Of a DNA stretch of 64,000 bases, positions 28,457 to 40,430 are shown piece by piece; positions within the stretch are counted from its first letter, which is position 1, and each line of letters opens with the position of its first letter. The stretch lies in assembly GCF_003002815.1 (NCBI RefSeq), contig NZ_PVTF01000001.1, forward strand, positions 248,001 through 312,000, read 5' to 3'. The position numbers and the translations under genes are program-made. The stretch is from Umezawaea tangerina. GTDB taxonomy: Bacteria; Actinomycetota; Actinomycetes; Mycobacteriales; Pseudonocardiaceae. Under the pieces are notes generated by a model. The model had not been told where the DNA came from and did no database searches. It saw only the letters and a list, made by a program, of their open reading frames with translations.

Positions 28457-29653
28457 TCAGCGCCCGACGGGAATGCCCGACTGCTCGGCCCAGGTGGCCA
28501 CGTCCTCCCGGCGCAGAGCGGTGGCGAGCAGGTCGGGGAAGCGGTCCGGGGTGCAGGCGAAGGCGGGGGCGCCGAGCGCGGTGAGCTTGGCGGCCAGCTC
28601 GTGGTCGTAGGCGGGGGTGCCGCTGTCGGAGAGGGCGAGCAGGACGACGAGGGTGACGCCGCTGGCGACGAGCTCGCGGACCCGGCGTTGCAGCTCGTGG
28701 GCGACACCGCCCTCGTAGAGGTCGCTGATGAGGACCATGACGGTGTCGGTCGGTCTGGTGACCAGCGACTGGCCGTAGGCGACCGCGCGGTTGATGTCGG
28801 TGCCGCCGCCCAGCTGCGTGGAGAACAGCAGGTCGACCGGGTCGTCCAGGGTCTCGGTGAGGTCGGCGACCTCGGTGTCGAAGACGACCAGCTTGGTGTC
28901 GATGGACTTCAGGGACGCGAGCGAGGCGCCCATGACGGCCGAGTAGACGACGGACTCGGCCATGGAGCCGGACTGGTCGACGAGCAGGACCACGTCCCGC
29001 AGCGCGGCCGAGCGGTTGCGGCGCTTGCGGCCCAGCAGGTTCTCGACGACGAGGGTGCGCTGCTCCGGTTGGTAGTGGCGGAGGTTGGCCTTGATCGTCG
29101 TCGGCCAGTCCACATCGGACGGTCGAGGGCGGCGGGTGCGCCGACCGTGGTCGACGGCGCCGCGGACGGCCGCCACGAGGCGGTCGGCGAGCCTGCGCTC
29201 GATGTCCTCGACGACCTTGCGCACCACGGCCCGCGCGGTGTCGCGGGTGCGGGCGGGGATCGCGGAGGACAGCGACACCAGGGTGCCGACGAGGCTGACG
29301 TCCGGTTCGACGCTCGACAGCAGCTCGGGTTCGAGCAGCAGCTGGCGCAGACCGAGCTTGTCGACGGCGTCCCGCTGCATCACCTGCACCACGGACGTGG
29401 GGAAGTACTTGCGCACGTCGCCCAGCCATCGGTGCAGTACCGGCGCGCTGGAACCGAGCCCCGCGCTGCGCTTGCCCTCGGACCCGCCACCACCCGTGCC
29501 CTCCGGGGGCGCGCCACCGCCGTACAGGCCGGTCAGCGCGCCGTCGCGCCGCTGGTCGTCCTCGCTCAGCCCGCCGACGCACTCGGCCGCCGGGCCGAGC
29601 AGCAGCCGCCACCGCCGCGCCCGCTCCGAGTCCTGCGCCACGACCTCGGTCAT
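28457..29653 (-). CDS. VWA domain protein of SWIM/MoxR operon
   Basis: A 398-residue protein ending the 37-28 kb operon. The C-terminal half is a von Willebrand factor A domain with the metal-ion-dependent adhesion motif DQSGSM, the second threonine in GGGTDINRAV and ISDLYEGG. The N-terminal half is a helical region with QVMQRDAVDKLG and a glycine-rich loop. VWA proteins commonly act with a MoxR AAA ATPase, here two genes upstream. ATG 29653 overlaps the DUF5682 stop by four bases. Confidence 0.92.
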   Translation of the reverse strand: MTEVVAQDSERARRWRLLLGPAAECVGGLSEDDQRRDGALTGLYGGGAPPEGTGGGGSEGKRSAGLGSSAPVLHRWLGDVRKYFPTSVVQVMQRDAVDKLGLRQLLLEPELLSSVEPDVSLVGTLVSLSSAIPARTRDTARAVVRKVVEDIERRLADRLVAAVRGAVDHGRRTRRPRPSDVDWPTTIKANLRHYQPEQRTLVVENLLGRKRRNRSAALRDVVLLVDQSGSMAESVVYSAVMGASLASLKSIDTKLVVFDTEVADLTETLDDPVDLLFSTQLGGGTDINRAVAYGQSLVTRPTDTVMVLISDLYEGGVAHELQRRVRELVASGVTLVVLLALSDSGTPAYDHELAAKLTALGAPAFACTPDRFPDLLATALRREDVATWAEQSGIPVGR

Positions 29654-31929
29654 CCGCCCACCCCCGCCAGCAGGGCACGCACGTGCCCCGACAACCGCTC
29701 CGCCATCGCCTCGTCCCACTCGCCCGCGACCGCCGGGCTCCCCGGCGACCCCAGCACGCGTTCGCCGAGCAACCGCCGTTCCGCCGCGCTGAAGTCGCTG
29801 ATCGCCCTGCGCAGCAACGGCAGCGCGTCGTCGAAGTCCGCGGGCGCCAACCCCGACAGCCACTCGTCGACCAGGTCGAACAGCCGCGCGTCGGCCGCCA
29901 GCAGCGCCGCCGACCCGCGCAGGAACCCCGACACGAACGCCGTCGCCCCGCTCGCCGTGCCGCCGTTCCACGACGTCGCCCGGTGCAGCCGGGTAGCCAC
30001 CGCCGCCGTGTCCAGGTCGCCCGACTCCCACAGCAGCCTGGTCGCCCGGCCGGTCGGCAGGCCGTGCGCGTCCGGCATCCCCACCAGCGACAGCAGCGCC
30101 CGCCGCCACGTCGCCTGGTGCTCCTCGTCCGCGGCCAGCCGCACCGCGTCGTCCGCCCCGTTCACCGCGGCCAGCGCCCGTTCGGCGGTGTGGTCGTCCA
30201 CGCCCCGGCAGGCCAGCGGCAACCCGACCGCGCCGCGGGCCAGCAGCCCGTGCAGCGCCACCCGCAGCAGCTCCGGGTCCGTGCCGCGGACCGAGCCGTA
30301 CCGGACCGTCGTGGCCAGGTCGGGCAGCGCGCCCAGCAGTTCCACCGCGTCCGTCGCGGCCGCCGCGCACCGGTCCAGCGCGCTGCGCGCCGCGAGCACG
30401 GAGACCGGCAGCTCGCAGCCGACCGCCTCGGACAGCACCTCCGCCGCCACGGCCACCCGGTCGGCGGCCGCCGCCCGCTGCCGCAGCACCCGGTCCGCCG
30501 CCGCCTCGACCGTCGTGCCGTGCCGGGCGGCGCCCGCCAGCGACACGGCGAAGCCGGGGTCCCAGCGGAGCTGCCACGCCTCGGCGAACGTGCCCAGCGT
30601 CCGCGTCCGGTCCGGCCTGCCCCACGGCACGCCCAGCACCGCCAGCCTGCGCAGCAGCTTCGACCGCTCCCGGTCGTTGTCCTTGCGCAGGTCCAGCCGG
30701 ATCTGCTTGCCCTCCAGGCTCGGCGGGAACTTCAGCCTGCGCTGCGACCGGGCCAGGTCCGCGGCGAGCGGTGAGGTCGGCACACCCGCGCCGACCTCGC
30801 CCAGGCGCTCACCGATCACCAGCTTCTCGTGCACCAGCCGCAGGTGGACCTCGTCGCCGCCGCAGAGCACGGCCAACGCGGCCTCGCTGATCTCCGACAG
30901 CCCCGGCGACGGCCTGCCGCGCAACGCCGCCAGCGTCTCCGCCAGCCGCACGGCCTCGACCGCGTTCGCCGTGGACGCGGGCAGGTCCTCCTCCCGCAGC
31001 ACCGAGCACGCGCGGGCGAACCAGCGCGGCACCGAGTCGCCCCGGTCCGCGCACTCCCACAGGTGGGCGTACCAGCCGGGGGAGTCGACGCCCGCGCCGT
31101 AGCCCGACGACGTCGCCAGCCGCCCGTGGCTCCACGGCACCCAGGTGCCCGACACCTTCCGCCTCGGCAGCCCCTTGAGCAGCGCCGCGTCCGCCGTCGA
31201 GGGCGGCAGCACGCGCAGCGCGGGCACGTGCCACGCCCCGCACACCACCGCGACCGGCCCCTCGGTCTCCTTCAGCGCCTTGCGCAGCGACTGCCGCATG
31301 AACGCCTCGCGCCGCAGCGTCCGGTCGTCCACCTGGTCGGCGAACTCCTCGCGCAGCGCCCCCATCGCCTCCGCGACCGCGGCGGCCAGGTCGCGGGGAT
31401 CGGCGCTGCCGAGCTGGATTCCCGTGGGGTGCTCGACGACGTCCTCCCACCAGCGCTCGGGGTCGTCGAACCCGGCCGCTTCCGCGAGCACGCCCAACGG
31501 GTCGAGCACCGCGCGCGGCCCGGACTCCGCACCGGACTCCTCACCGGGCTCCCCGCCGCGTTCCTCTCGGGGTTCCTCGCCGAGCGACGCGGAGGCGGGC
31601 AGGTCGAAGAACCGCACCGGGACGCCGTTGTCGTGCGCCCACGTCATCGCCCGCCACTCCGGGGAGAACTCGGCGAACGGCCAGAACGCGGCCGACGACG
31701 GCTCCGCCTCGTCGTGCAGCAGCAGGGCGACCGGCGGCATGAGCGACGGCAGGTGCTCCAGCAGCGCGTCGCCCTCCGGCGGGCCCTCGATCAGCACGAC
31801 CTCGGGGCGCACGGCCGCCAGCGCGGCCGCGACCATGCGGGCCGAGCCGGGGCCGTGGTGCCGGATGCCGAGCAGCACCACCCGGTCCGGCAGTGCCCGG
31901 TCCCGCCGGACCTGGTCGCGAGGGGCCAT
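29650..31929 (-). CDS. DUF5682 family protein
   Basis: A 759-residue cytoplasmic protein. The N-terminal region begins VVLLGIRHHGPGSARMV and continues with EVVLIEGPPEGDALLEHLP, the marks of the DUF5682 family; the fold resembles the TraB/PrgY-type EreA-like group, which has an HHGPGS motif. A low-complexity Glu/Arg/Gly stretch (about residues 120-142) interrupts it. GPVAVVCGAWHVPAL continues the core. The C-terminal half is long and helical. Function unknown; always near MoxR and VWA genes in related operons. The start ATG 31929 shares a base with the MoxR stop. Confidence 0.88.
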   Translation of the reverse strand: MAPRDQVRRDRALPDRVVLLGIRHHGPGSARMVAAALAAVRPEVVLIEGPPEGDALLEHLPSLMPPVALLLHDEAEPSSAAFWPFAEFSPEWRAMTWAHDNGVPVRFFDLPASASLGEEPREERGGEPGEESGAESGPRAVLDPLGVLAEAAGFDDPERWWEDVVEHPTGIQLGSADPRDLAAAVAEAMGALREEFADQVDDRTLRREAFMRQSLRKALKETEGPVAVVCGAWHVPALRVLPPSTADAALLKGLPRRKVSGTWVPWSHGRLATSSGYGAGVDSPGWYAHLWECADRGDSVPRWFARACSVLREEDLPASTANAVEAVRLAETLAALRGRPSPGLSEISEAALAVLCGGDEVHLRLVHEKLVIGERLGEVGAGVPTSPLAADLARSQRRLKFPPSLEGKQIRLDLRKDNDRERSKLLRRLAVLGVPWGRPDRTRTLGTFAEAWQLRWDPGFAVSLAGAARHGTTVEAAADRVLRQRAAAADRVAVAAEVLSEAVGCELPVSVLAARSALDRCAAAATDAVELLGALPDLATTVRYGSVRGTDPELLRVALHGLLARGAVGLPLACRGVDDHTAERALAAVNGADDAVRLAADEEHQATWRRALLSLVGMPDAHGLPTGRATRLLWESGDLDTAAVATRLHRATSWNGGTASGATAFVSGFLRGSAALLAADARLFDLVDEWLSGLAPADFDDALPLLRRAISDFSAAERRLLGERVLGSPGSPAVAGEWDEAMAERLSGHVRALLAGVGG

Positions 31930-33041
31930 CAGGCGCCGCTCACCGAGTAGCCGGACGTGTCCAGGTCCTGGCACGCCCGGTACAGGTCGCGCCACTGGAC
32001 GCGCTCCTTGACCACGGCCTCCAGGTACTCCCGCCACACCGCGCTGTCGGACACCCGGTCCTTGACCACCGCGCCGAGCAGCCCGGACGCCAGCTCGTCC
32101 GCGCCGAGCGTCCCGTCGCCGAAGTGACCGGCCTGCGCCATGCCGCCCGCGATCACCGAGATCGCCTCCGCCGTCGACAGGCTGCCGCTCGGCGACTTCA
32201 GCTGGGTGCGGCCGTCCACGGTGGACCCGTTGCGCAGCTCGCGGAAGATCCGCACGACCCGGCGCACCTCGTCCAGCGCCGGCGGCTCGGCGGGCAGCTG
32301 CAACGCCCGGCCGAGCTGGCCCGCCCGCGACGACACGATCCGCACCTCGTCGTCCTCGGTCGCGGGCGGCGGCAGCACGACGGTGTTGAACCGGCGGGCC
32401 AGCGCCGACGACATCTGGTTCACGCCGCGGTCGCGGTCGTTCGCCGTCGCGATCACGGTGAACCCCGGCACGGCCTGGATGTGCAGGTTCAGCTCAGGTA
32501 CCGGCAGCGCCTTCTCGGACAGGATCGTGATGAACGAGTCCTGCACCTCGGCGGGCATCCGGCTCAGCTCCTCGACCCGCGCCACCGCGCCGGTCCGCAT
32601 CGCGCGCAGCACCGGGCTCGGCACCAGCGCCGCCTCGCTCGGCCCCTCCGCGATCAGCCGCGCGTAGTTCCAGCCGTACCGCACGGACTCCTCGCTGGTG
32701 CCCGCGGTGCCCTGCACGACGAGCGTCGAGTCGCCGCTCACGGCCGCCGCGAGGTGTTCGGACAGCCACGACTTCGCGGTGCCCGGCACGCCCACCAGCA
32801 GCAGCGCGCGGTCGGTCACCAGCGTGCCGACGGCGACCTCCACCAGCCGCCTGCTGCCCACGTACTTCGGCGTGATCACGGTGCCGTCCGGCAGCGTGCC
32901 GCCCAGCACGTAGGTCACCACCGCCTGCGGCGACATCCGCCACCGGGGAGGGCGGGGGCGGTCGTCCGCGGCGGCCAGGGCCGCGAGCTCGGCGGCGTAC
33001 TGCTGTTCCGCGGCGGGCCGCAGCACGGTCTCGGTCGTCAC
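31929..33041 (-). CDS. MoxR-family AAA+ ATPase
   Basis: A 370-residue AAA+ ATPase. The Walker A is GVPGTAKS at 84-91, with the second AAA region VARVEELSRMPAEVQDSFITILSE (Walker B-like) and FTVIATANDRDRGVNQMSSAL (sensor 1) before ARRF (arginine finger). MoxR proteins remodel partner proteins, typically VWA proteins, as expected for the VWA gene of this operon. GTG 33041 overlaps the previous stop by four bases. Confidence 0.92.
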   Translation of the reverse strand: MTTETVLRPAAEQQYAAELAALAAADDRPRPPRWRMSPQAVVTYVLGGTLPDGTVITPKYVGSRRLVEVAVGTLVTDRALLLVGVPGTAKSWLSEHLAAAVSGDSTLVVQGTAGTSEESVRYGWNYARLIAEGPSEAALVPSPVLRAMRTGAVARVEELSRMPAEVQDSFITILSEKALPVPELNLHIQAVPGFTVIATANDRDRGVNQMSSALARRFNTVVLPPPATEDDEVRIVSSRAGQLGRALQLPAEPPALDEVRRVVRIFRELRNGSTVDGRTQLKSPSGSLSTAEAISVIAGGMAQAGHFGDGTLGADELASGLLGAVVKDRVSDSAVWREYLEAVVKERVQWRDLYRACQDLDTSGYSVSGA

Positions 33042-34468
33042 AGGACGGGTCCCTTCCGGTCGAAAGCCTGGGTCAGTCGCATGCGCAGCCGCAGCACGTC
33101 GAGCTCCGTCGAGTGCTCCGGCCACCGCTCGGTGATCCGCGCCCAGCTCGCGCCGAGCACCTCCGCGTCACCCCTCGCCAGCAACACGGCGGGCGGGCGG
33201 CCCGCGCGCCACCGGGGGTCGCGCATCTCGGCGTAGCGGTCGAGCAGGGCGGCGGTCGACTCCGCCGACCACGGCGCGGGCAGCTGCGAGCACGCGTGGT
33301 CGAGCAGGTCGTAGTTCCACTGGTGCGACACCGCGATCACGGTCCGCGCGGACAGCTCGGCGGGCAGCGCCGCCAGCATCTCCAGCTGTTCCATGCCGGT
33401 CAGCGTCTGCGTCGCCGCCACCGCCCACGGGCTCGCGTCGACCGCCCGCAGCAGCCGCTGCACCACCCCGCGCAGCAGCGCCGCCGCCCACGGTCCACGT
33501 GACAGCACGGCCGCCGCGCCCTCGTCGTCGGTCGACAGCCGGTTCGTCCAGTGCGACGGCGGCACGCTCGCCGCCGCCGCCCGCAACCGGCCCGCCACCC
33601 CGGACTCGGAACCGTCCTTCAGCAGGTCGCGCGACTCCTCGGGGCTGGTCAGCGCCTCCGCCCACAGCTCGTCGGACTGCACGTCGAACCCGTCCGTCGT
33701 CAGCCACAGACCGCGGTGCAGCCGTTCGGCGGCCCGTTCGGCCAGCGCGGACCCCGGCAACGCCCGCAGCAGCCGCAACGCCTCGTCGTGCACGCCGATC
33801 GCCCGGTCGTCCAGCGCCGTTTCCAGCAGCGGCTCGTCCTCGGCGCACAGCCCGGTCTCCAACGCGCTCACCAGCACCTGCCGGTCCGCGGCCCGCCGCT
33901 GCACCTCGAACTGCTCGGCCAGGAACTCCCGCGTCCCCACCGGATCCGCCCGGCGGGACCGCCGCAACGCCGCCAACCGCTGCGACCCCGGCAGGTCCAG
34001 CACCTCGTCCAGGTCCACCAGGTCCGCCGACACCCCGGACCCCGTCGCCCACGCCCACCCGGTCCGCGTCCCCGCCAACCACCGCCCGCGCGACCCGAGC
34101 ACCGCCGCCACCGCCGACCGCAGCCCCGGATGCGTCGTCCCCAGCACCAGCAGCTCCGGCAGCGCCCGGTGCTCCGCCACCTCACCCGCCGCCCGCGCCT
34201 TGCCGCACCACTCGGTCAGCAGCACCTGGTCGTCGGCCGCCACGATCTGCGCGAACACGTCCCGCGCCGCCTCCCCGACCACCCGCTCGTCCACCCGCGG
34301 CGCCACCGCCAACCCACCCACGTCCACCACCACCGGCAACGCCGCCCCGAACCCGGCGACCCCCAACGCCGCGCAGTCGTCCAACAACACCCCCGGCTCC
34401 ACCCCGCTTCGATGGGCGCCGACCAGCAACCGCCGCACCACCTCGTCCCACTCCTCCCGCACGCTCAT
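33038..34468 (-). CDS. DUF5691 family protein
   Basis: A 476-residue mainly helical protein that starts MSVREEWDEVVRRLL and contains heat-repeat-like segments (LAALRRSRRADPVGTREFLA, ALLRGVVQRLL, LLDRYAEMRDPRWRAG). This is the DUF5691 family, which goes with SWIM, MoxR, DUF5682 and VWA genes in actinobacterial operons. ATG 34468 overlaps the stop of the last micro-ORF and follows GGAGGGG. Function unknown. Confidence 0.88.
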   Translation of the reverse strand: MSVREEWDEVVRRLLVGAHRSGVEPGVLLDDCAALGVAGFGAALPVVVDVGGLAVAPRVDERVVGEAARDVFAQIVAADDQVLLTEWCGKARAAGEVAEHRALPELLVLGTTHPGLRSAVAAVLGSRGRWLAGTRTGWAWATGSGVSADLVDLDEVLDLPGSQRLAALRRSRRADPVGTREFLAEQFEVQRRAADRQVLVSALETGLCAEDEPLLETALDDRAIGVHDEALRLLRALPGSALAERAAERLHRGLWLTTDGFDVQSDELWAEALTSPEESRDLLKDGSESGVAGRLRAAAASVPPSHWTNRLSTDDEGAAAVLSRGPWAAALLRGVVQRLLRAVDASPWAVAATQTLTGMEQLEMLAALPAELSARTVIAVSHQWNYDLLDHACSQLPAPWSAESTAALLDRYAEMRDPRWRAGRPPAVLLARGDAEVLGASWARITERWPEHSTELDVLRLRMRLTQAFDRKGPVL

Positions 34469-34710
34469 ACCGCCCCTCCGACCGCGCTCGGGAAGCCGTG
34501 CAGCCGACGCGTGCGGGACGAGCCGGCGTCGGTGGCACGGCGAGCCGGCACCGCCGCGCCGACACCGGCCTCGTGACCACCGGTCGCCCCCGTGCGGCTG
34601 TCCGGCGCCCTGGTGGTCGTGGGCGCGGCCCAGCTGGTGCGGTCGACCAGCACCCGCGCGCTGGCGGGCAGCCACCAGGTCCCGCGACTCGCGGTGAATG
34701 CGGTGCTCAT
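34465..34710 (-). CDS. Micro-ORF A of repeat array
   Basis: An 81-residue frame with MSTAFTASRGTWWLPASARV, then LVDRTSWAAPTTTRAPDSRT, then a diverged tail. GGAGG lies six bases before ATG 34710. It begins four bases inside the stop of the preceding micro-ORF and ends four bases inside DUF5691. The opening is near-identical to that of copy C. Not recognised as any known family; it may be a translational spacer or a real peptide. Confidence 0.45.
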   Translation of the reverse strand: MSTAFTASRGTWWLPASARVLVDRTSWAAPTTTRAPDSRTGATGGHEAGVGAAVPARRATDAGSSRTRRLHGFPSAVGGAV

Positions 34711-35240
34711 GCCGCGCCTCCGATGGAAGGACGGATGCCGAGCAGCCGGAACCCGCGCGGCGCCACGGCTTCCGTGTCTTGGTGAGCCGGTACTCGTGCG
34801 TCGAAGAGGCCAACCACCTCGTGGCCGGTAGCGCTGTGCCGAGTACGGCTGTCCAGCACATCGGTAGACGTGGGTGCGGCCCAGCACGTGCGGTCGACCA
34901 GCACCCGCGCGCCGGCGGGCATGGTGCCGGCGGGCAACAACCAGGTCGTGCGGTTCCGAGCGAATGTGCTCATGCCGCGCCTCCGATGGAAGGACGGATG
35001 CCGAGCAGCCGGAACCCGCGCGGCGCCACCGCTTCGGCGTCGTGGTGAGTCGGTGACTCGTGCGCTGAAGGTGTCGACCGCCTCGTGGCTGGTAGCGCTC
35101 TGTCGAGCGCGGCTGTCCAGCATGTCGGTAGGCGTGGGTGCGGCCCAGCAGGTGCGGTCGACCAGCACCCTCGCGCCGGAGAGCTTGGTGCCACCGGACA
35201 ACCACCAAGTCGTGCGGCTCCCGGTGAATGCGGTGCTCAT
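34707..35240 (-). CDS. Fused micro-ORFs C and B
   Basis: A 177-residue frame that contains two repeat copies joined in frame. The first half (from ATG 35240) opens MSTAFTGSRTTWWLSGG-T and has ARVLVDRTCWAAPTPTDMLD; the second half starts at an internal ATG (34973), MSTFARNRTTWLLPAG-T, and has LVDRTCWAAPTSTDVLD. A single extra base around 35053 in copy C, compared with B and D, removes the stop that would have ended it and lets it run into B. B can also start alone at 34973 with its own GGAGG. Confidence 0.45.
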   Translation of the reverse strand: MSTAFTGSRTTWWLSGGTKLSGARVLVDRTCWAAPTPTDMLDSRARQSATSHEAVDTFSARVTDSPRRRSGGAARVPAARHPSFHRRRGMSTFARNRTTWLLPAGTMPAGARVLVDRTCWAAPTSTDVLDSRTRHSATGHEVVGLFDARVPAHQDTEAVAPRGFRLLGIRPSIGGAA

Positions 35241-35587
35241 GCCGCGCCTCCGGAGGAAGGGCGGATGCCGAGTAGCCGGAACGCGCGCGGCGCCACGGCT
35301 TCCGTGTCTTGGTGAGCCGGTACTCGTGCGTCGAAGGCGCCGACCACTTCGTGGCCGGTAGCGCTCTGCCGAGTGCGGTTGTCCGGCACGTCGGTGGTCG
35401 TGGGCGCGACTTGTTCGGTGCGGCTGGTCGGTACCAGGGTGGTCGCGGGCGTGATCCTCCTGGAGCGGTCGGTCGGCACGGTCGTCACGGCACGCCCGGT
35501 GCGGCTGACCAGCACCCGCGTCCCCGCGGGCCGGGTGCCGACCAGTAGGCGCCAGGTCGTGTGGTTGCGCTTGACCGTCGCGCTCAC
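35237..35587 (-). CDS. Micro-ORF D of repeat array
   Basis: A 116-residue frame starting GTG 35587 (VSATVKRNHTTWRLLVG-T), continuing GTRVLVSRTGRAVTTV, an inserted PTDRSRR stretch, and ending VVGAFDARVPAHQDTEAVAP then a tail shared with B. Its end overlaps the copy C start by four bases, and it begins four bases inside micro-ORF E. It is the longest copy because of an insertion of about 25 codons in the middle. Confidence 0.45.
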   Translation of the reverse strand: MSATVKRNHTTWRLLVGTRPAGTRVLVSRTGRAVTTVPTDRSRRITPATTLVPTSRTEQVAPTTTDVPDNRTRQSATGHEVVGAFDARVPAHQDTEAVAPRAFRLLGIRPSSGGAA

Positions 35588-35760
35588 GCGGACACCTCGG
35601 GCTGGCAGGTCGCGGGCGCGGTCAGGGCGACCGGGACGGTTCGGCGGCCGTGGCGGGGGAGCAGGGAGCGGGTGGTGGTCCGCTTCGGCGTGCACCCCGG
35701 CCGCTGCCCGCCCGCCAGCAGCCGCTGCACGATCTCGTCCCACTCGGTCCGGGCGTTCAC
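35584..35760 (-). CDS. Micro-ORF E, partial copy of the DUF5691 5' end
   Basis: A 58-residue frame starting GTG 35760 (GGAGG upstream), VNARTEWDEIVQRLLAGGQR, which matches the start of DUF5691 (MSVREEWDEVVRRLLVGAHR). After that the sequence is unrelated and arginine-rich. Starting at ATG 35817 instead would give 77 residues and the four-base overlap with the SWIM stop that the other genes show. It may be the relic of the ancestral DUF5691 start, cut off by the insertion of the repeat units. Confidence 0.4.
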   Translation of the reverse strand: MNARTEWDEIVQRLLAGGQRPGCTPKRTTTRSLLPRHGRRTVPVALTAPATCQPEVSA

Positions 35761-35813
35761 GCGATGTCCTCCGATGACTTGCCCAACGGGCAGTAAGTGG
35801 TCTTGGGGCGAGG

Positions 35814-37100
35814 TCATCCGACGACCTCGGGGGCCTTGCCGGGTTCGGCGACGGCGCCGACGCGGAGGTCGTGGCCGTCCCAGAGGCCCCAGGCGTCGAA
35901 CGGTTCGCCGCCGGTGATGGCCAGGGCGCGGTCGAGGGCGGCGTCGCCGCGGACGGGCAGTGCCCGCTGTCCGACGTCGACCAGGAACCGGACGTCGGCG
36001 GTCGGGCGCACGGCGGCGCAGCCCAGCGGGTGCACGCGCTGCCACGGGTCCGCGCGCAGGGCCGGTTCGAGGCCGGCGAGGGCTTCCCGCCAGGTCATGG
36101 GTACCGGGATGGCCTCGGGGGGCCGTTCGGCGAGCAGCTCACCCACCGCGACCCGGCGCGGTGCCACGCCGGGGTACGGGTGCAGCGTGCCCGTCACCTC
36201 GCGGCCGTGCGGCAGCGACGGGGCGGGCTTCGCGCCACCGGCCGCGTACCGGATGCCGACCACCCACTCCGCGCGGTCGCGGCCCCAGCTCCACTGCCGG
36301 ACCGACCGGACGAGGCCGTCGTCGGTCTCCATCCGCAGCAGGGCCACCCAGCGGTCCGACCAGCCCGGTGATGCCCGCACCCGCTCCTCCGGCACGGGGA
36401 ACCCCAGCCGGGCCCGCACAACGTCGCCCAGCGGCCCGTCAGCGCCCTCGGAGAGCGTGGCCAGCAGGTGGAGGCCGCCGAGCCGATCCGCGGCGTCCAC
36501 GGCCCACTGCGGGCCTCCCGCGGCCACGACCTCGCGCAGCCCGCCGACCGCCGCGGCCAGACCTGGCGCCTGCGCGTCGACCATCCGCGCGGTGATCGAG
36601 TGCCACCAGGCCGCGTCGCGCCCCGGCAGCCCGGCCACGCCGGACCCCGCGACGTCGCTGAGCCAGTCGCGCAGCGCGGCCACGCCGCCGCGCACCGCCT
36701 CGGCCCGGTCGCGGGCCGTCTTCTCCTTCGCCCGCGCGCGCCGCTGCACGGCCTCCGGCGAGGAGTCCGCGGGAGCCGCGGGCGCGTTCCGCCTCGCCTG
36801 CCAGCCGTCGGCCCAGTCCGGCGGCGCGTCGGCGACCGGCACGTCGCCCCGGACGTGCACCAGTTGCAGCGCCACCGCGTGCTTGCACGGGAACTTCCGC
36901 GACGGGCAGGAGCACTTGGTCGACCGGTCGCCGAGGTCGACGCACACCCGGTACGGGTTCTTGCCGCTGCCGGGGCACAAACCCCACAGCAGAGCCGCCG
37001 TCCGGCCGGTGCCGCTCCACCCCGCGGTGGCGGCCAGCCGGGTGGCGCTGCTCGCCACCTGACCGTCCGGCGCCTGCTCCAGCACTGCCTGTGCGTCCAT
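35814..37100 (-). CDS. SWIM zinc finger protein
   Basis: A 428-residue protein with a SWIM motif near the N-terminus: CSCPSRKFPCKHAVAL with zinc ligands C63, C65, C72 and H74. The remainder (about 100-428) is helical with no further motif I recognise. SWIM proteins bind DNA or proteins. It is the first gene of the minus-strand SWIM - DUF5691 - MoxR - DUF5682 - VWA operon. ATG 37100 is the best start. Confidence 0.9.
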   Translation of the reverse strand: MDAQAVLEQAPDGQVASSATRLAATAGWSGTGRTAALLWGLCPGSGKNPYRVCVDLGDRSTKCSCPSRKFPCKHAVALQLVHVRGDVPVADAPPDWADGWQARRNAPAAPADSSPEAVQRRARAKEKTARDRAEAVRGGVAALRDWLSDVAGSGVAGLPGRDAAWWHSITARMVDAQAPGLAAAVGGLREVVAAGGPQWAVDAADRLGGLHLLATLSEGADGPLGDVVRARLGFPVPEERVRASPGWSDRWVALLRMETDDGLVRSVRQWSWGRDRAEWVVGIRYAAGGAKPAPSLPHGREVTGTLHPYPGVAPRRVAVGELLAERPPEAIPVPMTWREALAGLEPALRADPWQRVHPLGCAAVRPTADVRFLVDVGQRALPVRGDAALDRALAITGGEPFDAWGLWDGHDLRVGAVAEPGKAPEVVG

Positions 37101-37138
37101 GGTCGAAACGCTAGAGCAGGGCACCGACAAGAACGGTC

Positions 37139-38317
37139 TTAGTCCAGGTCAGGACCCCTGCGAGCCCACGACCACGCGTACTTCGGGTCCTCCGTCGCCA
37201 GCGCTGCCTCACCCAGTTCCAAGGGGCGGAACGTGTCGACCATGACGGCGGTCTCGTCGAAGTACTCGACGCCCAGCGACGCCTCGACGGCACCGGGCTG
37301 CGGGCCGTGCGTGCAGCCCGACGGGTGCAGCGAGAGCGACCCGATGCCGATGCCGGAGCCCTTGCGCGCCTCGTAGTTCCCGCCGACGTAGAACATCAGC
37401 TCGTCGGAGTCCACGTTCGCGTGGTTGTAGGGCACCGGGACCGCGAGCGGGTGGTAGTCGACCTTGCGCGGGCAGAACGAGCAGACCACGAAGTTCGGCC
37501 CCTCGAACGTCTGGTGCACCGGCGGCGGCTGGTGCACGCGCCCGGTGATCGGCTCGAAGTCGCGGATGTTGAACGCCCACGGGTACAGGCAGCCGTCCCA
37601 GCCGACCACGTCGAACGGGTGGTTGGCGTAGGTGAACCTGGTCAGCCCCGCGCGGTGCCGCACGAGCACGTCGACGTCCTCGCCGTCGACCAGCAGCGGC
37701 TCCACCGGGCCGCGCAGGTCGCGCTCGCAGTACGGCGAGTGCTCCAGGAACTGCCCCTTCGCGGACAGGTACCGCTTCGGCGGCCCGATGTGCCCGGTGG
37801 CCTCCAGGACGAGCACGTCCATCGGCTCGTCGGGAACCACCCGGTAGGTGCACGAAGTGGGGATCACGACGTAGTCGCCGTCGCCCACGGTGATCGCGCC
37901 GTAGATGGTCTCCACGGTCCCGCTGCCCGCCCGGACGTAGAGCAGCTCGTCGCCCGCGGCGTTGCGGTAGAGCGGGCTGGGCGCGTTCGCGACCACGAAC
38001 CCGATCGTCACGTCGGCGTTGCCGAACAGCGTGCGACGGCCGGTGACCGCGTCCACCTCGCCGTCGGGCCAGCTCAGCGCGGGTGTCCGGAAGTGGCGCG
38101 GCTTGAGCGGGAGGTTCGGCGAGGTGGCGCCGCGGGTGTCCTCGACGGTCTGCGCGTCCACGATCGCGGTGGGCAGGAACCGGTGGTAGAGAAGTGCGGA
38201 GTCGGCCGAGAAGCCCTCCACGCCCATGAGCTCTTCCGCGTACAGCCCACCGTCCGGATCGCGGAACTGGGTGTGGCGCTTTCGGGGGATCTCACCGACT
38301 TGGCGGTAGTACGCCAT
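37139..38317 (-). CDS. hmgA: Homogentisate 1,2-dioxygenase
   Basis: A 392-residue iron-dependent ring-opening enzyme, converting homogentisate to maleylacetoacetate in tyrosine breakdown. The iron site region reads YNHANVDSDELMFYVGG (His and Glu), and a second His lies in HPSGCTHGPQPG. ATG 38317 follows GGAG and gives the family start MAYYRQVGEIPRKRHTQF; an upstream ATG at 38347 is less likely. It diverges from the hypothetical gene before fah, so both share one regulatory gap. Confidence 0.95.
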   Translation of the reverse strand: MAYYRQVGEIPRKRHTQFRDPDGGLYAEELMGVEGFSADSALLYHRFLPTAIVDAQTVEDTRGATSPNLPLKPRHFRTPALSWPDGEVDAVTGRRTLFGNADVTIGFVVANAPSPLYRNAAGDELLYVRAGSGTVETIYGAITVGDGDYVVIPTSCTYRVVPDEPMDVLVLEATGHIGPPKRYLSAKGQFLEHSPYCERDLRGPVEPLLVDGEDVDVLVRHRAGLTRFTYANHPFDVVGWDGCLYPWAFNIRDFEPITGRVHQPPPVHQTFEGPNFVVCSFCPRKVDYHPLAVPVPYNHANVDSDELMFYVGGNYEARKGSGIGIGSLSLHPSGCTHGPQPGAVEASLGVEYFDETAVMVDTFRPLELGEAALATEDPKYAWSWARRGPDLD

Positions 38318-38372
38318 GATCACTCCGGGCGTTCGATAGTCGGACATCTTTGTTCATTGACCGATACGCCAC

Positions 38373-38378
38373 TAGCGT
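38373..38378 (+). promoter_or_regulatory. Possible -10 box of the gene before fahA
   Basis: TAGCGT lies seven bases before GTG 38386, with TTTGTT 18 bases upstream as a weak -35. This would make the mRNA leaderless. Low confidence. Confidence 0.3.
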
Positions 38379-38385
38379 GTCAGCC

Positions 38386-39252
38386 GTGTCAAGCGCCTTC
38401 GAACTCCGTGCGCCAGGTCCACGCGGTACTCCGCCCCTGCTGGCAAGGCTTGTCGACGATGCCGCCCTGTTCCCGCCGGGCAACGCGTCCATGCCCGACG
38501 CGGTGCGCGGGCACCTCGACGCGCGTGTCGGCGAGTGGGCCGGCGCCATGGGCCTGTTCCTGTGTCCAGCGTCACGTCTGGCCGAGCTGATCACCGAGTT
38601 GATCAAGGTCAAGCCGGTGAAGCCCATCGCCCTGTCGCTGGTCATCGACACCGGCCTCGGCGGTGTCCCCAAGGCCGTGTCGATCGTCGAGTCCCGCAGC
38701 GAGCTCCTCGCGCTGCGGATGGTCGAGATGCCCGCCCCCTCCGACGTCGACGAGGTGTGGCTCGAACGCGTCTCCGAGTTCGTGCCCGAGGACGTGATCC
38801 GCGTGGTCGAGCCCCGGCGCGGCGGCGCCGAGTGGCTCGACGGCGTGCGCCGCGTCATCGAGCACGGGAGCTGGCCCAAGCTGCGCTGCGGCGGGGTCAG
38901 CAAGGAGAACTTCCCGAGTGTCGACGAGGTCGCGGACTTCCTCGCGGTGGTGAGCCACAGCGGGGTCGCGTTCAAGGCCACCGCGGGCCTGCACCACGCC
39001 GTCCGGCAGACCGACGAGGCCACCGGCTTCACCCACCACGGGTTCCTCAACCTGCTGGTGGCCACCGCCAGGTCGCTGTCGGGCGGGGACGTGCGGGAGG
39101 CGCTGGGCAGCACCGACGCCCAGGCGCTGTCCGCCGAGGCCAACGAGCTGACCGACCCGGCCGCCCACGCCGTCCGCGGCGTCTTCGCGTCCTACGGCTC
39201 CTGCTCGCTGGCCGACCCGATCGCCGACCTCGACGACCTGGGTCTGCTGTGA
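38386..39252 (+). CDS. Conserved hypothetical protein, tyrosine catabolism cluster
   Basis: A 288-residue soluble protein with DDAALFPPGNASMPDAV near 25-42 and, later, FKATAGLHHAVRQTDEATGF. It lies between hmgA and fahA and ends in a GTGA overlap with fahA, so it is part of that operon. I have the impression that actinobacteria keep this position but it has no named role. GTG 38386 or GTG 38377 may be the start. No membrane segment. Confidence 0.72.
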   Translation: MSSAFELRAPGPRGTPPLLARLVDDAALFPPGNASMPDAVRGHLDARVGEWAGAMGLFLCPASRLAELITELIKVKPVKPIALSLVIDTGLGGVPKAVSIVESRSELLALRMVEMPAPSDVDEVWLERVSEFVPEDVIRVVEPRRGGAEWLDGVRRVIEHGSWPKLRCGGVSKENFPSVDEVADFLAVVSHSGVAFKATAGLHHAVRQTDEATGFTHHGFLNLLVATARSLSGGDVREALGSTDAQALSAEANELTDPAAHAVRGVFASYGSCSLADPIADLDDLGLL

Positions 39253-40430
39253 GCTGGGTCGACGCACCCGCGTTCGACCGCGACGAGCCGTTCGGGCCGC
39301 AGACGCTGCCCTACGGCGTCGTCGACGCCGGGGTGGCGGTCCGCGTCGGCGACCGGGCCGTGCCGCTGCGACCGCTCGCCGGGTACTTCGGCGACCGGCT
39401 GGCCGACCTGGTGGCCGCGGACACGCTCGACCCGCTGCTGGCCGCCGGCCGGCCGGTGTGGAGCGAGCTGCGCGCCCGCGTGGTCGAGCTGGTCGCGGCC
39501 ACGGCCGCCCCGCGCGGCGCCGAGCTGGTGCCGCTGACCGGCGCGGTCCTGCCGTTCTCGGTCGCGGACTACGTGGACTTCTACTCCTCGCGCCACCACG
39601 CGGAGAACGTCGGCAAGATCTTCCGGCCGGACTCCTCCGCGCTGCCGCCGAACTGGACGCACCTGCCGATCGGCTACCACGGCCGTGCGGGCACGGTCGT
39701 CGTGTCCGGCACGGACGTGGTCCGCCCGCACGGCCAGCGCCGCGGCCACCCGAACCCCGAGTTCGGACCGTCCCGGCGGCTCGACATCGAGGCCGAGGTC
39801 GGCTTCGTGTGCGGCGGGCCGGTCGCCTCGCGGCTGTCCACCTCCCGCGCGGCCGAGCACGTGTTCGGCGTCGTCCTGCTCAACGACTGGTCGGCCCGCG
39901 ACATCCAGGCGTGGGAGTACCAGCCGCTCGGCCCGTTCCTCGGCAAGTCGTTCGCCACCTCGATCTCCGCGTGGATCACCCCGCTGGAGGCGTTCGCGGT
40001 GGCGCGGGTGACCCCGCCGCCGCTGCCCAACCCGCTGCACGACTACCTCGTCGAGGACCAGTCGTGGGGGCTCGACCTGAGCATCGAGGTCGAGTGGAAC
40101 GGCACGGTCGTCTCGCGGCCCCCGTTCCGCGAGCAGTCGTGGACGTTCACCCAGCAGCTCGCGCACCTGTCGGTCAACGGCGCTACGGTGCGACCGGGAG
40201 ACCTCATCGCGTCCGGCACGGTCTCCGGGGCGGAACGCGACGAGCGCGGCTCGTTCCTCGAACTGAGCTGGGGCGGCGAGCAGCCGGTCGCCCTGTCCGA
40301 CGGCAGCGAGCGGACCTTCCTCGAGGACGGCGACACGGTGCGCATCACCGCGACCGCCCCCGGCGAGGAGGGCTCGCTGGTCGGCCTCGCCGAAGTGGTC
40401 GGCACGATCGAGCCCGCCGACGGGAAGTAG
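39249..40430 (+). CDS. fahA: Fumarylacetoacetase
   Basis: A 393-residue enzyme splitting fumarylacetoacetate to fumarate and acetoacetate, the last step of tyrosine breakdown. The FAH signatures are present: DFYSSRHHAENVGKIFRP, LNDWSARDIQAWEYQPLG then FLGKSFATSISAWI, and the metal-binding EAEVGFVCG. GTG 39249 overlaps the previous stop by four bases. Length as usual for bacterial FAH. Confidence 0.95.
   Translation: MSWVDAPAFDRDEPFGPQTLPYGVVDAGVAVRVGDRAVPLRPLAGYFGDRLADLVAADTLDPLLAAGRPVWSELRARVVELVAATAAPRGAELVPLTGAVLPFSVADYVDFYSSRHHAENVGKIFRPDSSALPPNWTHLPIGYHGRAGTVVVSGTDVVRPHGQRRGHPNPEFGPSRRLDIEAEVGFVCGGPVASRLSTSRAAEHVFGVVLLNDWSARDIQAWEYQPLGPFLGKSFATSISAWITPLEAFAVARVTPPPLPNPLHDYLVEDQSWGLDLSIEVEWNGTVVSRPPFREQSWTFTQQLAHLSVNGATVRPGDLIASGTVSGAERDERGSFLELSWGGEQPVALSDGSERTFLEDGDTVRITATAPGEEGSLVGLAEVVGTIEPADGK

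Follow-up and report, generated by a model that had tools for sequence, protein, structure and literature searches.

Why should an operon keep a row of short reading frames, none with a recognizable domain, between two of its genes? The question is raised by a 64,000-nucleotide (nt) stretch of the Umezawaea tangerina genome (RefSeq assembly GCF_003002815.1, contig NZ_PVTF01000001.1, positions 248,001 to 312,000; here called the window), in which the genes for a SWIM zinc-finger protein and a DUF5691 protein are separated by frames that we call A, B, C+D, and E. The operon lies on the minus strand and continues with genes for MoxR, DUF5682, and VWA-domain proteins. A preliminary description of this DNA had recognized an array of coupled micro-open reading frames and had offered two options, namely, that the peptides matter or that the frames only keep ribosomes moving; the second fits the sequence evidence better. 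We propose that the four frames are probably relay frames, which would keep the translation of DUF5691 coupled to that of SWIM and whose peptides would be by-products.

The anatomy and coordinates first described for this array were confirmed (Table 1). In the window, an exact ATGA or GTGA overlap joins every step from SWIM through MoxR, a geometry that would allow the whole chain to be translated, as had been supposed. A Shine-Dalgarno core (GGAG, GAGG, or AGGA, 5 to 16 nt upstream of the start) precedes all five starts (A, B, C, E, and DUF5691), in keeping with the statement that most frames have a ribosome site of their own. Four or five frames had been counted, each opening at a four-base overlap. 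There are four: because the start-to-start spacing from C to D is 267 nt (0 mod 3), whereas a −4 chain requires 2 mod 3, C and D form a single 177-codon frame. The overlap is thus found at A, B, C, and E but not at D, whose ATG at 34973 sits within the C frame and overlaps no stop; the spacing from D to E (263 nt) is compatible with a −4 chain. Farther downstream, MoxR, DUF5682, and VWA begin at overlaps of −4, −1, and −4, respectively, and the whole operon in the window is joined by overlaps of one or the other kind.

We surveyed this junction in a named collection (36 loci) and in 390 family genomes, 69 of which gave a match at E ≤ 1e-40. The 108 loci with both genes reduced to 70 distinct SWIM-DUF5691 junctions; L116 and L117 (no DUF5691 match) and L013 to L017 (distant) were excluded, and L077 and L083 are one locus. 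The chain of NTGA start/stop overlaps from the SWIM stop to DUF5691 was unbroken in all 70 distinct loci, and the overlap was exactly −4 at each step. SWIM overlapped DUF5691 directly in 33 loci, one spacer frame lay between them in 35, and four did so in 2, namely, U. tangerina and G002, which, together with G001 (locus identical to that of Umezawaea endophytica), is its nearest relative among the genomes compared. The gaps ranged from −16 to 1,345 nt and the spacers from 14 to 268 codons, with spacer loci in Umezawaea (3), Saccharothrix (13), Lentzea (19), and two further genera (1 each). Insert length differed from that of the nearest relative, as judged by DUF5691 sequence, in 46 of 71 rows (one locus being counted twice). 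Spacers therefore vary in number and length among relatives with their overlaps intact, as the preliminary description had anticipated. A Shine-Dalgarno core was present before DUF5691 in 26 of the 37 spacers and missing in 11.

Since the insert lengths in the nearest-relative comparison were summed from the intact chain and are circular with respect to length class modulo 3, they were not used for that question; gap length was measured from SWIM and DUF5691 homology, independently of the chain. The gap measured in this way was 1 mod 3 in 37/37 loci with spacers and 2 mod 3 in every locus with a direct overlap, the classes that an unbroken chain requires. With first-order Markov sequence of matching composition put in place of the inner part of each spacer, an intact chain would be expected in 25.7 of the 37 spacer loci if their lengths were kept and in 10.0 if length was left free modulo 3 (summed log10 null probabilities, −7.8 and −22, respectively). 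For the four-frame chains the same null gave P of about 0.02 (U. tangerina) and 0.2 (G002). Across the spacers, no stop occurs in 3,709 codons of the coupled frame, compared with 63 in 3,666 codons of the +1 frame. Given that openness alone is common, most of the signal comes from the length class together with the exact ends.

Among 70 outgroup loci from other families, 50 were readable by motif, including L238 and L239, whose assignment is probably wrong. Where SWIM terminates in NTGA, as it does in 22 of these loci, the chain to DUF5691 was intact in all 22, through an in-frame start at the overlap in 18 and through one or two short frames in 4. In family f33, 25 of the 28 readable loci end SWIM otherwise (24 CTGA and 1 TAA) and are uncoupled; their distances fall into classes of 14, 6, and 5 (1, 0, and 2 mod 3), unlocked though uneven, and tens to hundreds of bases are left untranslated at the junction.

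In some loci, extra sequence has been taken up into the DUF5691 frame itself. It is 80 codons longer in L040/L071 (a Saccharothrix metagenome-assembled genome), a 22-codon filler is followed by a long N-terminal extension of DUF5691 in L032 (Saccharothrix tamanrassetensis), and in-frame extensions of varying length are usual in family f31. In three Lentzea loci (L056, L065, and L075), the overlap from DUF5691 to MoxR is lost, and the DUF5691 frame has 630 codons in L056 and 441 in L075; these lengths and the lost overlaps are perhaps frameshifts or assembly errors.

The peptides encoded by the spacers look unconstrained, and between relatives their change is near neutral, not that of diversifying selection. 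For six Saccharothrix genomes with alignable spacers, the pooled ratio of nonsynonymous to synonymous differences (pN/pS) was 0.92 in the spacer, compared with 0.23 in the SWIM ends and 0.16 in DUF5691, and it reached 1.33 over the initial 40 codons of the spacers, which align without gaps; frame A of U. tangerina compared with G001 gave 0.85 to 0.96. G+C content over the three codon positions was flatter in the spacers (0.74, 0.70, and 0.82) than in the SWIM ends (0.80, 0.57, and 0.93). The four U. tangerina frames matched no Pfam or NCBIfam family, in agreement with the first reading of them, and ten long spacers from relatives gave no domain above the cutoff (one subthreshold match, E 0.0016). 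A single-sequence AlphaFold2 model of C+D had a mean predicted local distance difference test score (pLDDT) of 30.9, which carries little weight.

The DNA of the spacers has several unrelated origins that differ between genera. In U. tangerina, a tandem array with a period of 264 and 2.7 copies (85% matches; score, 1058) supplies three of the four frames: B, C+D, and E hold copies of the ~264-bp repeat. The peptide core RVLVDRT-WAAPT and the repeat had been ascribed to all of the frames; B to E carry the repeat, but A lacks the core. The repeat is confined to the array within its own genome (4 matches, all there), and a dispersed element was rejected as an explanation, the 264-bp unit being present at a single locus. 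The tail of C equals that of D at 76 of 81 bases, yet its reading frame is shifted by one; copy C thus took up a change of frame while the chain stayed intact. The head of A is a partial copy of the start of DUF5691 (58 nt at 74%; 25 amino acids [aa] at 52%, E about 5e-4) and follows an internal GTG that has its own Shine-Dalgarno sequence; in G002, the DNA corresponding to the head of A is divided between two frames, of 33 and 62 aa, that overlap at GTGA.

A different source is seen in Saccharothrix, where six spacers (L018, L021 to L024, and L026) start with a dispersed element of about 55 to 90 bp. This element has 26, 22, 21, and 19 matches in G116, G122, G134, and G125, respectively, and none in U. 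tangerina. In G134, 17 of the 20 other copies have a co-oriented gene-like frame as their nearest upstream neighbor, but that frame ends within 100 bp of the element in only 11; in 3 of these 11, the element itself supplies the TGA of the gene. An initial likening of this 85-nt element to the mycobacterial interspersed repetitive unit (MIRU) was dropped; the element may be a 3′-end or terminator-like repeat family. Short tandem repeats are common in the spacers (a Tandem Repeats Finder match at score 30 in 27/37), with periods in all three classes modulo 3 (47, 31, and 28 rows, overlapping).

Our proposal joins these observations as follows. A ribosome finishing SWIM at the NTGA overlap would start the next frame there, and DUF5691 would be translated by coupling, presumably through termination-reinitiation and perhaps to the benefit of subunit stoichiometry. 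DNA would accumulate at the junction through local tandem duplications, copies made of the DUF5691 start, or incoming dispersed repeats, and it would be kept only as open frames, each running from the previous stop to the next start, so that ribosomes could still reach the DUF5691 start. In U. tangerina, this process would have yielded the four-frame chain, with copies of the 264-bp unit in three frames. If the handing-on needs an overlap, an insert is tolerable only as overlapping frames, as observed. The 11 spacers that lack a Shine-Dalgarno core before DUF5691 should depend more on coupling. According to Huber et al. (2023, PMC10666635), a spacing of ~20 nt nearly abolishes reinitiation or coupling in six gene pairs; the review by Brown and Wade (2025, PMC12548453) describes more spacing tolerance in some Escherichia coli constructs. 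A short nonsense frame upstream can raise translation, according to PMC13255528. Relay frames might additionally be a class of coding sequence selected for translation rather than product, whose number and length act as an evolvable setting of the DUF5691-to-SWIM ratio and are tuned in each species by gain or loss of repeat units, with each extra start-stop step either lowering the yield of the next protein or resetting it through its own Shine-Dalgarno sequence; we regard this extension as rather unlikely.

Several observations weigh against the proposal. The Shine-Dalgarno core before DUF5691 in 26/37 spacers leaves independent initiation possible. Openness is common at this G+C content (at fixed length, the null probability averages 0.70), the +2 frame has few more stops than the coupled one (6 in 3,666 codons), and the null probabilities are not independent because the loci are related. 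Some spacer peptides may be weakly constrained, for instance in Umezawaea: pN/pS between U. tangerina and G002 was 0.42 for A (13 differences), 0.54 for B, and 0.66 for E, it was 0.69 between the repeat copies of U. tangerina and 0.65 in the spacer of one Lentzea pair (0.11 in SWIM and 0.04 in DUF5691). Misaligned variable tails may drive spacer pN/pS towards 1. Nor is the operon coupled throughout in relatives, as judged from rows among which L044/L119 appears twice and one genome contributes two copies. The step from DUF5691 to MoxR is unbroken in 36/39 rows; of 16 rows that reach the step from DUF5682 to VWA, 11 are unbroken, 4 are broken, and 1 runs off the locus; and the MoxR stop is CTGA, without overlap, in all 20 Lentzea rows that reach it. 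The broken rows at these two steps indicate that the strict lock belongs to the SWIM-DUF5691 junction and not to the whole operon. Finally, six gene pairs elsewhere are coupled in one genome only, with gaps differing by >30 nt, in a comparison of U. tangerina with G002.

Fillers do occur at the other junctions. Coupled fillers of 5 to 112 codons lie between DUF5691 and MoxR in 8 Lentzea rows, and G002 (L120) has a 180-codon coupled filler with repeats of roughly 45 to 50 residues between DUF5682 and VWA, where U. tangerina (about 29650 in the window) has a direct gene overlap and no filler. Over 400 kb compared between these two genomes, 163 codirectional pairs were examined and 16 were coupled in both; among these 16, spacer content differed only within the SWIM-MoxR-VWA operon (two junctions, three rows).

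Three other explanations deserve weighing against relay frames. The chain could be an accident of high G+C content, with long open frames common and the repeats an ordinary minisatellite. At fixed length, random sequence with the composition of a spacer is indeed open about 70% of the time, and the +2 frame is almost open as well; yet 37 of 37 spacers are intact with the right length class where 10 are expected, the four-frame chains have null probabilities of about 0.02 and 0.2, and the lock is absent where the SWIM stop is not part of an NTGA. We consider an accident extremely improbable. An untranslated stretch within a high-G+C operon could trigger termination, and the spacers might be kept translated to escape Rho-dependent polarity rather than for exact start-stop coupling. 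That they are open throughout agrees with this idea, but polarity would tolerate small gaps or longer overlaps, whereas the overlap is −4 in every distinct locus, and the f33 genomes carry untranslated gaps at this very junction; we therefore consider polarity a quite unlikely cause.

Alternatively, the frames could encode real, fast-evolving small proteins, such as decoys in a MoxR-VWA conflict system or its disordered, hypervariable partners, with the overlaps reflecting usual packing. All of the frames are open with Shine-Dalgarno cores, A seems somewhat constrained between U. tangerina and G002, and MoxR and VWA genes adjoin, as they do in the MoxR-vWA ternary conflict systems of Kaur et al. 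(2020, PMC7159879). However, the main text of that article does not contain the words SWIM and DUF5682. The third components of those systems are VMAP, iSTAND, FtsH, or beta-propeller proteins; the scan, which covered the operon, identified SWIM, DUF5691, and DUF5682 there. The operon MoxR scored 23.7 bits against bpMoxR (PF20030, beta-propeller subsystem; cutoff, 27), and PADLOC anti-phage models gave no convincing match to the five operon proteins (best, SWIM, E 0.0024). Spacers are absent from 33/70 distinct loci and unrelated between genera in sequence and origin, their pN/pS is near neutral in Saccharothrix, no domain was found in the four U. tangerina frames or, above the cutoff, in the ten long spacers from relatives, the C tail is read in a shifted frame, and the low pLDDT of C+D adds weak evidence in the same direction. 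Small functional proteins are accordingly improbable, and conflict-system peptides were rejected as the principal reading. The preliminary description had likened the diversity between copies to that of conflict-system proteins; this part of it is not supported, given the near-neutral ratios in Saccharothrix, in the Lentzea pair, and between the U. tangerina copies, together with the unrelated origins, the shifted C tail, and the lack of a convincing anti-phage match.

Relay frames, as we propose them, have partial counterparts among known systems. MIRUs, reportedly described by Supply et al. in 1997, would be the nearest natural precedent by analogy. The frame of the U. tangerina repeat likewise shares a −4 overlap with the start of the gene that follows it, a likeness drawn from descriptions. 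As set out in PMC12548453 and PMC2734929, MIRUs place repeat DNA at a gene start with a frame coupled to the gene at −4 and a variable copy number, and a few bases separate rnc from fpg in most tabulated nontuberculosis mycobacteria, compared with 279 to 358 bp in the tuberculosis complex. The MIRU unit, however, is 40 to 100 bp and dispersed at many chromosomal places (PMC2734929), whereas the U. tangerina unit is about 264 bp at a single locus in the genome and the fillers of the clade have several unrelated origins. Coupling by start-stop overlap is itself already established, and the relay-frame form is a variant of it: the exact four-base NTGA overlaps at each step are shared with the systems in PMC10666635 and PMC12548453, but in the present case frames that seemingly only preserve coupling span as much as 1.3 kb of DNA that changes fast and near neutrally. 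So-called nfORFs (PMC13255528) and bicistronic leaders resemble the spacers in having a functionless peptide that aids the next gene and a Shine-Dalgarno sequence just before the shared stop/start; they are engineered and short, whereas the present frames are natural, of 14 to 268 codons, and placed between two operon genes. We found no description of frame-locked neutral fillers in the open-license PubMed Central (PMC) literature, judged by title and the start of the abstract, and no paper on DUF5691 in the same literature.

Whether a ribosome crosses untranslated RNA or needs an overlapping stop and start is debated from reporter assays in a few species. At the SWIM-DUF5691 junction, evolution has in effect repeated that experiment dozens of times, tolerating inserts of up to 1.3 kb and leaving no untranslated base between the two genes in any of the 70 distinct loci. 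If the frames are translated, they would be one of the few visible cases in which selection acts on the reading of a sequence and not on its product. They also caution annotators and those who hunt for microproteins that small, open, frame-conserved ORFs with Shine-Dalgarno sequences need not encode functional peptides.

Table 1. The SWIM-DUF5691 junction and its operon, in window coordinates
Feature	Positions	Strand	Basis or remark
SWIM zinc-finger protein gene	35814..37100	−	428 aa from ATG at 37100; Pfam SWIM, E 3e-6
Filler frame A, 77 aa	35584..35817	−	ATGA overlap with SWIM stop
Filler frame B, 116 aa	35237..35587	−	GTGA overlap with A
Filler frame C+D, 177 aa, two fused repeat copies	34707..35240	−	ATGA overlap with B
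Filler frame E, 81 aa	34465..34710	−	ATGA overlaps with C+D and DUF5691
Tandem array core, period about 264 bp	34702..35408	−	Tandem-repeat detection and start-to-start spacing
DUF5691 gene, 476 aa, downstream junction partner	33038..34468	−	PF18944, E 2e-62
MoxR-type AAA ATPase gene	31929..33041	−	AAA_5, E 1e-34; GTGA overlap with DUF5691
DUF5682 gene	29650..31929	−	PF18934, E 1e-234; TGATG (−1) overlap with MoxR
VWA-domain protein gene	28457..29653	−	−4 overlap with DUF5682; label from the preliminary description and weak NCBIfam matches

A known structured RNA was rejected as an explanation of the region, an Rfam scan of 33000 to 37300 having given no match at the gathering level. Just upstream of SWIM, at 37139 to 40430, lie genes that tentatively resemble those for homogentisate 1,2-dioxygenase and fumarylacetoacetase.

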